NCBI GenBank assembly: GCA_013399115.1
Contig: VXAA01006530.1
Location: 356,610 to 420,609 of the forward strand
Direction of reading: 5' to 3'
DNA length: 64,000 nucleotides
DNA from: Anseranas semipalmata
Lineage: Eukaryota > Chordata > Aves > Anseriformes > Anseranatidae
Positions 1 to 45,822 of the stretch are shown piece by piece. Positions within the stretch are counted from its first letter, which is position 1; every line of letters starts with the position of its first letter. A program made the translations under genes and the position numbers. Under the pieces are notes generated by a model that worked only from the letters and a program-made list of their open reading frames with translations, was not told the DNA's origin and did not search any database.

Positions 1-32
1 ACTCTTCCCTGTACTGGTACACAAACCAGAAT
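1..32 (+). CDS. CNKSR2-like: CNKSR2-like, partial PH-domain exon at window edge
   Basis: Frame 3 reads SSLYWYTNQN up to a strong donor (gtaagt at 33-38). This is the PH-domain strand with the LYWY pattern seen in CNKSR2 and IPCEF1. It joins in phase 0 to DEKAEGF in the next exon, as in those relatives. The exon's 5' end is outside the window. Confidence 0.85.
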
Positions 33-44400: not shown

Positions 44401-45822
44401 TTAGTGCTCATTTCTGTCTATGGGTTCTATATCTTCAGATATTGGTGAAAGAGGAATTTGTAATTGACAAATGAAGCACTGGATTTTATTTTGCAAGGTT
44501 TCTGCAGTGGTGCTCTCTGTGCATCTAAAGTGATTGGGATAATTGACTAGATCATGTAACAGCATATTTAATATACAAGCATTTTGATAGGCCAGTTGCT
44601 AAGAAAAATAGCAGAATTGCCTATTAAAGTAGAATTGAATTTGTTTTAAAATATTGTTAGATTTTGTAGGGGTAATTTGGAAATTTTACTTGACACTTAT
44701 ACTTTACTTGCTTACTTCTTTTTATTGTGTTCTTTATCAGAACACTTTTCTTTCTGGAAAGCAAAGAGAATGTATTTGGATTATTCTTTTTTCCCTTTCT
44801 TTTCACCATTAATACATTCACATCTTTCTTTGCTTTGCACCTATGGTTTTTTTTTCTTATTTAGTCTGTGGAATGCTTTGATCTTCTAATTTTTTTTTTA
44901 TTATTATTTGCTTCAGGCTACTCTTTAATGGCTTTATGTATAAAGCTGTCATATGTCTTTGCTTCCACAGGTAGAATTAGTTCATGTCCCTAATACAGCC
45001 ACGCCCTAAATTCAGCCACGCCCTAAATTAATCTGGTTTGTCAGTAAGGTTTATTTTCATTAGTCCAAACAGAGCAAAGGTTTTAGGGGAACATCGCGTC
45101 ATTTATTAAACCAACTGATGTAGCTGGAAAAGATGTGGAGTAGCGTTAGGAGGCACAGGCCTAGATAAACCTGGCTTTATATACCCAAAGATCCTCTATA
45201 ATGACAGTATCAGTAAATGTGTCAGTCTTGGAGCCTTGACATTCAGGTTGATTGTCAGGGCTAAACGTTTTACTAACCTTACTCTTTTTTGAAATCATAA
45301 AGTGAAACTATATGTGTGTTTGTCTTCATTTGGAATCCTTACCATCTGGCTGTGGGCAGCTGTGCAGCAGCTTCAAGGAAGATTCAGCTGTTCTGGGGGG
45401 TCAGCTGTGCTCCTGGGAGCAGCAGGGGAAGAAAGAATCAAGACTTTTTCCACATCCTAAGCTTTCCCTTCCTTTCCGTCTGTAGGGCAAAGTATCACTA
45501 ATTCCTCTCTCACCCTGCTGTGTTCAGGAACTCCATCCACTGCTGTACGCTAATAGTTACAACATGCCTTCATTGGTCTGTAACACAGTTTTAACTAGAA
45601 CACGCACATTTTGGTCATTCATAAGCGCTTAGTAATACAGTAATTCTCAAAATGTGTTGATAAACTTTTTTTTCCAGAGCCCAAAAAGTTTCTTTAATAC
45701 ATTTCTTTAATATATTTCTAACAGGAACAGTGAAGACGACAAAATTTAAACCTGACCCAAAACTTACGGACCATGGTCAGTCTAGCCCAGAAGATGTGGA
45801 TATGTACAGTACAAGAAGCTAA
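35378..45822 (+). CDS. APOOL: APOOL, MICOS complex subunit MIC27 (exons 2-9)
   Basis: Joined exons: 35378-35479, 36087-36206, 37754-37808, 39000-39098, 40248-40339, 41807-41893, 43817-43973, 45725-45822. They give 269 residues and a stop, all with GT/AG sites and consistent phases. Human MIC27 is 268 residues, so only a short N-terminal exon is missing. MIC27 is a cardiolipin-binding inner mitochondrial membrane protein of the MICOS complex that shapes cristae junctions. Visible hallmarks are QLVKPNQLPIYSSP, EQPGHLQ, NGIMDTIQFGKDAYVYLKNP, the hydrophobic segments ITVSGLAGVVLARK and YPLGLTTLGISVCYPAQSVI, and the C-terminus DHGQSSPEDVDMYSTRS. The C-terminal linker is Lys/Ser-rich and diverged, as usual. 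APOO (MIC26) is the alternative, but the sequence follows APOOL throughout. Confidence 0.95.
36087..36206 (+). CDS. APOOL: APOOL exon 3
   Basis: The exon reads LPIYSSPLLKLKYIDEQPGH then LQKQFSSVRQATGRYIRWCK, 40 codons in phase 0. Acceptor ttctttccag and donor gtaaga. YIDEQPGHLQ and the VRQATGRYI stretch are family-conserved. Confidence 0.95.
37754..37808 (+). CDS. APOOL: APOOL exon 4
   Basis: The exon reads DAFFFVKNGIMDTIQFGK and ends with one base of the next Asp codon. Acceptor ttctttgtag and donor gtaggc. The motif is nearly identical to human MIC27 (FVKNGIMDTVQFGKD). Confidence 0.95.
38375..38500 (-). repeat. CR1 LINE fragment, antisense
   Basis: The + strand reads ggcccaaccctccgattaaa, gcagggtcaaagc, tgtccagccaggttttgaac and atctccagggatgaaaattc, then ccacaacttctct. 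That is the reverse complement of the avian CR1 3' region. It is truncated and diverged, within APOOL intron 4. Confidence 0.75.
38971..38994 (+). repeat. TTTG microsatellite acting as polypyrimidine tract
   Basis: About six TTTG units end five bases before the AG of the APOOL exon 5 acceptor (tttgataag at 38991-38999), so a length-variable repeat supplies the pyrimidine-rich splice signal. Confidence 0.85.
39000..39098 (+). CDS. APOOL: APOOL exon 5
   Basis: The exon reads DAYVYLKNPPPEFLPKVG then IITVSGLAGVVLARK, the conserved MIC27 core with its first hydrophobic segment. Acceptor gataag, unusually purine-rich next to the AG; donor gtaggg. Confidence 0.93.
40248..40339 (+). CDS. APOOL: APOOL exon 6
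   Basis: The exon reads SRFKKIAYPLGLTTLGIS then VCYPAQSVIIAK after a split Asp codon. This is the second hydrophobic segment of MIC27 (human YPLGLATLGATVCYPVQSVI). Acceptor tatacag and donor gtaagt. Confidence 0.95.
41807..41893 (+). CDS. APOOL: APOOL exon 7
   Basis: The exon reads VTGKKIASASHQTYETVRSL then WAKKEDVSK, 29 codons in phase 0. The acceptor follows a T tract (ttttttttttaatag) and the donor is gtaggt. It matches the VTAKKVYATSQQ...VKSLW part of human MIC27. Confidence 0.93.
42466..42682 (+). repeat. CR1 LINE 3' end, sense
   Basis: It carries gttaggaaaaacttctttac, gcattggaacaggctgccca, gggaagtggttgagtcacca, ggttggactggatgagcttg and ends in ccgtgattctgtgatt, the CR1 terminal repeat. 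A clearly recognisable avian CR1 3' end in APOOL intron 7. The antisense ORF over it is spurious. Confidence 0.92.
43377..43420 (+). repeat. 22-bp tandem duplication
   Basis: Two exact copies of tctgtaagatctaaattttt-type sequence with a 22-bp period (43377-43398 and 43399-43420), followed by further diverged ttctg-tgtaagact units to about 43480. It lies in APOOL intron 7. Confidence 0.85.
43817..43973 (+). CDS. APOOL: APOOL exon 8, variable linker
   Basis: The exon reads LQQESKSVTQEDKKKKEISN and continues through TKPESAVESRSFNRTESSPI to ESWNTKDPVPSS, 52 codons plus one base. It is Lys/Ser/Glu-rich and predicted disordered, as in the variable part of MIC27. Acceptor cgttcacag and donor gtaaat. 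Reading into the intron adds a short tail and stops at 44056, a possible retained-intron form. Confidence 0.9.
44996..45029 (+). repeat. 17-bp tandem duplication
   Basis: Two exact head-to-tail copies of cagccacgccctaaatt in APOOL intron 8. Confidence 0.9.
45725..45822 (+). CDS. APOOL: APOOL terminal coding exon 9
   Basis: The exon reads GTVKTTKFKPDPKLTDHG then QSSPEDVDMYSTRS and TAA at 45820-45822. The end is almost identical to human MIC27 (PDPKLMDHGQSHPEDIDMYSTRS), fixing both identity and stop. The acceptor is tttctaacag. Confidence 0.96.

Follow-up and report, generated by a model that had tools for sequence, protein, structure and literature searches.

Gene structure and extent

The stretch of DNA analysed here (the window) comprises 64,000 nucleotides of contig VXAA01006530.1 (C3559, positions 356610-420609) from the 1.10 Gb, 4080-contig genome assembly of Anseranas semipalmata (GCA_013399115.1). 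The flanking sequence was examined too, over 120 kb on the upstream side and 80 kb on the downstream side. The plus strand carries, from window position 1 to 21807, the 3' part of a gene of the CNK family followed by APOOL, whose exons run from approximately 35375 to a stop codon at 45820-45822. The working name CNK4, denoting a fourth CNK gene, was coined in this analysis. Human sequences of CNKSR1, CNKSR2, CNKSR3, IPCEF1, APOO, APOOL, RSKs, SAT1, ZFX and ZNF711 served as queries and references for comparison throughout.

The last eight exons of CNK4 lie in the window with the reading frame intact. Seven are complete and bordered by AG/GT; spliced together in phase, they give a single open frame of 413 amino acids. 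The window begins inside the eighth, of which bases 1-32 finish coding SSLYWYTNQN ahead of a donor GTAAGT at 33. The motif RRSWQDLIETPLTSSGLH is encoded at 20304-20357 and the terminal THTHSFIETHV ends at 21804, followed by the stop codon TGA (21805-21807). Full-length orthologues P0138 and Anolis P0124 map exon by exon onto C3559 from approximately 257752 to 378413, a span of about 120 kb, and the stops seen in these alignments fall where matches extend into intron. The initial annotation had recognised a CNK gene with CNKSR2-type motifs, a diverged post-PH segment and APOOL downstream on the same strand, all of which was borne out. Its motifs and coordinates were right but the extent requires amendment, since the gene begins at least 99 kb or so before the window.

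Four CNK loci in one genome

When P0138 was searched against the bird's own genome, all 40 of the 40 matches listed fell on five contigs (C3559, C2784, C179, C1160 and C1716), representing four CNK loci according to the best match to human queries: CNKSR1, CNKSR2, CNKSR3-IPCEF1 and CNK4. The CRIC exon of CNKSR2 on C2784 was identical to human at 68 of 68 residues, while C179 carried the RRSWQDLIE exon (86%) and a tail reading THSYIETHV; CNKSR2 is thus divided between two contigs in this assembly. The CRIC exon on C1160 matched CNKSR3 at 91% and one C-terminal exon there matched IPCEF1 at 85%, with N-terminal matches at 450-471 kb and PH/C-terminal matches at 358-390 kb. The CNKSR3-type and IPCEF1-type exons in this 358-471 kb interval are collinear and share a strand, the arrangement that splitting of a full-length CNK3 would leave. 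C1716 carries CNKSR1, with 59% and 62% identity in the two best pieces. The presence of separate CNKSR1, CNKSR2 and CNKSR3-IPCEF1 loci in the same assembly identifies CNK4 as a fourth CNK locus.

Taxonomic distribution and phylogeny

Three protein searches yielded at least 261 different proteins, which were scored against P0195 (CNK4 type, containing the Callorhinchus entry P0014) and human CNKSR2. Among the matches listed, the scope of all counts of CNK4-class sequences below, 243 were closer to P0195 and 18 to CNKSR2. CNK4 was found in birds, an alligator, turtles, tuatara, lizards, snakes, frogs, salamanders and caecilians and, among fishes, in lungfish, coelacanth, sturgeon, gar, teleosts, skates, sharks and Callorhinchus. 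It is old and widespread, from sharks to birds, and not confined to the latter. Both types occur in Callorhinchus milii (CNK4, P0014 and P0199; CNKSR2, P0116) and in Terrapene (records under T. carolina triunguis and T. triunguis). The orthologues of mandarin duck, ibis and penguin all score 96-97% against that of A. semipalmata.

In a tree of 38 sequences CNK4 formed its own clade (support 95/97), outside both the CNKSR2 clade (100/99) and the IPCEF1/CNKSR3 clade (IPCEF1, 100/99); CNKSR1 was recovered at 100/100. Omission of the paralogues from the bird's own genome left the CNK4 clade at 89/95, and a tree of the N-terminal part alone gave 93/96.

Domains and binding motifs

Matches to the Pfam families SAM, CRIC, PDZ, CNK2_3_dom and PH were all present in the full-length orthologues P0138 and P0195. 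The SAM_1 scores of P0138 and P0195 were 49.5 and 62.7 bits respectively, the SAM exon on C3559 being 100% identical to that of the orthologue, and CRIC_ras_sig scored above its cut-off (82.4 bits) in CNK4 on C3559 itself. The orthologue exons encoding PDZ and PH likewise map onto C3559, although the half of the PH domain inside the window, taken alone, scored 20 bits against a Pfam cut-off of 25.1. An AlphaFold2 prediction of the part from PH to tail (orthologue P0005 with 18 relatives) had a mean predicted local distance difference test score of 47.9, with 64 residues at 70-90 and none higher.

The PH domain of CNK2 is reported to bind PI(3,4,5)P3 and PI(3,4)P2, a property not retained by a W591A mutant, and CNK2A together with CYTH1/3 promotes ARF6 activation through a C-terminal CRAC region (PMC10272126). 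A tryptophan occupies the W591 place in all 175 CNK4-class sequences having the surrounding pattern, which leaves the tested residue free. The C-terminal region of CNK4 aligns with the cytohesin-binding region of CNKSR2, IPCEF1 and CNKSR1.

The C-terminal ETHV of CNKSR2 is a PDZ-binding motif for the PDZ domains of S-SCAM, and CNKSR2 also binds PSD-95 (PMC8774548, PMC10040811). ETHV ends 157 of 243 CNK4-class sequences, and the remainder may be truncated models or real losses. A proline-rich motif (PPPP) at residues 354-357 of human CNKSR2 binds Vilse/ARHGAP39 (PMC8774548). IPPPP stands at this site in human CNKSR2 and CNKSR3 and in the CNKSR2 of the same bird, whereas CNK4 on C3559 reads ILSPMSG; PPP was missing from all of the 121 CNK4-class sequences, of 243, that cover the segment.

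Conservation and apparent fate in mammals

Over a gap-free block of 152 residues from SAM to CRIC, CNK4 of lizard, alligator, turtle, axolotl, frog, catshark and elephant shark was 98.7-99.3% identical to that of duck, elephant shark matching at 150 positions (98.7%); gar reached 97.4%. For CNKSR2, the identity between elephant shark and human within this block is 96.7%. The C-terminal half is less constrained, with 77% identity between the window and elephant shark.

Mammalian CNK4 identified by name, among the matches listed, comprised three entries from Monodelphis and one from Sarcophilus; some entries were nameless. Opossum CNK4 was only 70.4% identical to duck in the SAM-CRIC block, and the marsupial copies show strongly accelerated change outside their repeat as well. 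The stretch from DYWSESD to GRHFSSE has a median length of 53 residues in the 132 CNK4-class sequences with both ends. In the marsupial gene models it measures 345 residues in Sarcophilus (P0240) and 384 in two Monodelphis entries (models P0238 and P0239), the next longest being 110, 93 and 87 residues in a lizard and two teleosts. The marsupial stretch has a period of ten residues, with self-identity of 0.59 and 0.54 at lag 10 and 27 and 24 units under a loose pattern, and the repeat is similar to the SPFPEPKHG unit that other vertebrates carry once. Had monotremes or placentals kept a conserved copy, it should have ranked high in the protein searches; none was among the matches listed, although a fast-evolving one might rank below them.

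Neighbourhood of CNK4

Along C3559 lie, in this order, an RSK kinase on the minus strand, CNK4 (258-378 kb) and APOOL on the plus strand, a SAT1/SATL1-like relic on the minus strand and ZNF711 on the plus strand. The kinase lies at 52-60 kb in eight pieces, 65-86% identical to RSK2, and is closer to RPS6KA6 (RSK4) than to RPS6KA3 (RSK2), the two RSKs compared (503 versus 473 bits summed over six exon pieces). ZNF711 occupies 440.5-452.7 kb, its first exon being 87% identical to ZNF711 and 41% to ZFX. Another contig, C3239, carries APOO and ZFX together: APOO at 102 kb (73% to APOO, 52% to APOOL) and ZFX at 195-206 kb (86% to ZFX, 39% to ZNF711). APOOL and ZNF711 on C3559, which also bears the RPS6KA6-type kinase, are accordingly paired with APOO and ZFX on C3239. 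Four RSK loci, of eight pieces each, stand out in the genome (C3559, C2613, C3415 and C2342).

Human Xq21 is taken to carry RPS6KA6-APOOL-SATL1-ZNF711, and Xp22 RPS6KA3-CNKSR2-SAT1-APOO-ZFX; on the same map RPS6KA1 accompanies CNKSR1 at 1p36, and RPS6KA2 accompanies CNKSR3 on 6q. Read against this map, the neighbours on C3559 indicate that CNK4 fills the place of the partner of CNKSR2 on the Xq21-type block.

Within the window, open frames of at least 75 amino acids beyond 21.8 kb, inspected by eye, comprised APOOL exons and no other gene. The first exon of APOOL was not located in the window. Positions 29892-30591 hold G+C-rich open frames with a gap of 50 N at 30105-30154, and perhaps represent the promoter and first exon of APOOL. 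The two tblastn matches of the relic to SAT1 had E values of 3e-4 and 2e-4, and the third piece was a local alignment scoring 51. Its position, matching that of SATL1 in human, suggests that SATL1 has decayed in this bird.

Table 1. Features located in the window
Feature	Position	Strand	Evidence
CNK4 PH-domain exon, 3' end	1..32	+	P0138 residues 599-657 match C3559:356465-356641 at 100%; match begins 145 bases before the window
CNK4 exon, PH domain (DEKAEGFISLPEFRIDRAIECRKK)	1480..1553	+	Exon assembly
CNK4 exon, end of PH domain (AFKACHPKIKSFYFATDCLEEMNR)	6742..6813	+	PH matches IPCEF1 structure 5mr1, E 4.1e-20
CNK4 exon encoding the post-PH segment, diverged relative to CNKSR2 (WMNRLGLAAIGYTPDDK)	17758..17828	+	Alignment
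CNK4 exon, acidic segment DYWSESD	18582..18682	+	Exon assembly
CNK4 exon, SPFPEAKHG unit (expanded in marsupials) and RRSWQDLIETPLTSSGLH core	20157..20664	+	Alignment
CNK4 exon, start of C-terminal cytohesin-binding (CRAC) region	20986..21185	+	Alignment; region name from PMC10272126
Final coding exon of CNK4, completing the conserved C-terminal region and carrying PDZ ligand ETHV and stop TGA	21592..21807	+	Reading frame
APOOL	35375..45822	+	tblastn with human APOOL; reading frames; Pfam ApoO 118 bits (assembled part)
APOOL match limits (may extend into intron)	35375-35482, 36066-36206, 37760-37819, 38999-39118, 40250-40345, 41807-41875, 45727-45822	+	tblastn
APOOL probable linker exon	within 43748-44053	+	By eye
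Decayed SAT1/SATL1-type relic	48840..50708	-	Collinear pieces 50631-50708, 49992-50030 and 48840-48920; stops in two

Origin of CNK4

CNK4 very probably represents the fourth, missing product of the genome duplications early in vertebrate history, retained in lineages from sharks to birds. The reading as a whole, in which an intact fourth CNK is the Xq21-type ohnologue of CNKSR2 from two early vertebrate genome duplications, with a function and a mammalian fate that are inferred (see below), is advanced with high confidence. CNKSR1, CNKSR2, CNKSR3-IPCEF1 and CNK4 would all have been born in these duplications, the block containing CNK4 pairing gene by gene with that of CNKSR2. A sister paralogon had been proposed in the initial annotation from the pair APOO and APOOL, and now finds support beyond that pair in the RPS6KA6-type kinase and ZNF711 on C3559 and in ZFX beside APOO on C3239. 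That annotation further proposed an added member of the CNK family. The existence of another CNKSR2 in the assembly (C2784/C179), besides CNKSR3-IPCEF1 and CNKSR1, and the position of CNK4 outside the CNKSR2 and IPCEF1 clades agree with this. The fourth locus stands, but it is not absent from databases, where it is unnamed or labelled CNKSR2.

Many database records do call CNK4 'CNKSR2', and the RRSWQDLIETPLTSSGLH core and ETHV tail are common to both proteins, as they would be if CNK4 were simply the ordinary CNKSR2 of this bird, divergent through its lineage or an assembly error. This is refuted by the second CNKSR2 of the same assembly, near-human where compared; moreover, C. milii and Terrapene hold both types, and forcing the four CNK4 birds with CNKSR2 cost 16.5 log units and was rejected by the approximately unbiased (AU) test (p-AU 0.004), leaving the idea virtually no credibility. 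Equally little can be claimed for CNK4 as a full-length orthologue of CNKSR3-IPCEF1. The two have C-terminal residues in common (YKSLEQASLS, RPSTK, RKSFVKRC), yet the separate CNKSR3-IPCEF1 locus on C1160, with its close match to human IPCEF1, refutes such an orthology, and forcing IPCEF1 with sauropsid CNK4 sequences cost 13.8 log units (p-AU 0.015). Joining the CNK4 clade to IPCEF1 instead of CNKSR2 was likewise disfavoured (p 0.036-0.049), with long branches involved. A segmental duplication of CNKSR2 at some other time, outside the two genome duplications, is improbable. It would fit the union of CNK4 with CNKSR2 in the C-terminal tree, and gene pairs placed on both partner contigs number only two (APOO/APOOL and ZFX/ZNF711). 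On the other hand, CNK4 is common to sharks and bony vertebrates, so that the duplication predates their split; neighbours were duplicated along with the CNK gene (APOO/APOOL, ZFX/ZNF711, an RSK and probably SAT1), and four CNK loci are accompanied by four RSK loci in this genome.

Several observations weigh against descent from the two genome duplications or against parts of that account. The trees do not fix the order in which the four CNKs branched: C-terminal data unite CNK4 and CNKSR2 (98/99, subject to a long-branch warning), while the N-terminal tree left the order of paralogues undecided (p-AU 0.46-0.55 for three alternatives) and did not recover CNKSR2 as one clade, the long human CNKSR1 sequence falling inside it. 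CNKSR1 and IPCEF1 were each represented by one human sequence and one short sequence from the bird's own genome. As regards the paralogon, the kinase on C3559 was set against two RSKs only; the APOO match on C3239 is a single exon of 29.8 bits, under the Pfam cut-off of 31.4; and CNKSR2 and APOO sit on different contigs (C2784 with C179, and C3239). The first coding exon of CNK4 was not found within 21 kb above the SAM exon. The ETHV tail is missing from the Sarcophilus model (P0240), and one Monodelphis model (P0238) has no Pfam PDZ match, so not every orthologue keeps every part. No placental or monotreme CNK4 appeared by name among the matches listed, where a fast-evolving copy could rank lower.

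Proposed function and significance

CNK4 is predicted to be a membrane scaffold of approximately 1065 amino acids composed of SAM, CRIC, PDZ, CNK2/3 and PH domains, a C-terminal cytohesin-binding region and the PDZ ligand ETHV. To judge from its sequence, the PH domain may hold the protein at PIP3-rich membrane, as in CNKSR2, where CNK4 would recruit cytohesins to load ARF6 while its tail tethered it to PDZ scaffolds of the MAGUK type. Replacement of PPPP would have uncoupled it from Vilse/ARHGAP39, a GTPase-activating protein for Rac. CNK4 is possibly neuronal, as the initial annotation suggested from its PDZ tail. In therians the block would have become X-linked; with constraint then relaxed, the marsupial gene would have grown its repeat and changed fast, and the placental gene would have been lost. 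The combined scenario is put forward tentatively, with rather less than even confidence: an N-terminal half near-frozen in non-mammalian jawed vertebrates, the Vilse link lost and the cytohesin and PDZ links kept, therian X-linkage freeing constraint so that marsupials gained some 25-30 ten-residue repeats of SPYLESKRGA type and the gene disappeared from placentals. CNKSR2 would there be partnerless, which may help to explain the harm of CNKSR2 loss in people.

In people, variants of CNKSR2 give rise to epilepsy and intellectual disability with X-linked inheritance (PMC8774548, PMC6785448). Birds, reptiles, amphibians and fishes have a full-length sister gene, which may buffer models of CNKSR2 made in those animals. 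With CNK4 the CNKs form a quartet parallel to that of the RSKs and useful for reading the early vertebrate duplications; the gene also exemplifies a highly conserved scaffold that seems to have been relinquished in mammals.

The open literature searched, subscription papers lying outside that scope, yielded no description of CNK4 as a fourth CNK, and none of the titles and abstracts listed on APOOL, RSK genes and gene loss dealt with it; a herring paper mentions a gene named CNKSR2-like with an intron indel. CNK4 is real, intact and widespread, and is apparently undescribed as a fourth CNK in that literature, databases using wrong or provisional names. Mislabelling is widespread: many bird, reptile and shark records plainly named CNKSR2 or 'CNKR2 kinase' are CNK4.

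Comparison with known CNK proteins

CNK4 resembles CNKSR2 (CNK2, MAGUIN) in its order of domains, namely SAM, CRIC, PDZ, CNK2/3 domain, PH, C-terminal region and ETHV ligand (PMC8774548, PMC10040811), in the tryptophan at the W591 place and in the SAM-CRIC block, where duck CNK4 is 88% identical to human CNKSR2 over 152 residues. It differs in having its own locus and clade, a replaced Vilse motif and a different post-PH segment, its C-terminal half being 49% identical to that of human CNKSR2 over 412 aligned positions. The labels si:ch211-26b3.4 (zebrafish-style) and 'CNKSR2-like' (NCBI) attach to members of the CNK4 clade, for example Callorhinchus P0014 and P0199, and are names only. With CNKSR3 CNK4 shares an N-terminus of CNK2/3 type (duck CNK4 68% over 330 positions to human CNKSR3) and with IPCEF1 a C-terminal region of the same kind. 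CNKSR3 and IPCEF1 are counted as two genes in human (PMC10272126). Their clade is separate from that of CNK4, and human IPCEF1 is without the ETHV tail. CNKSR1 has a PH domain and C-terminal region of the same kind as those of CNK4, but lies at its own locus on C1716 and is only 33% identical to CNK4 in the C-terminal half, over 254 aligned positions.

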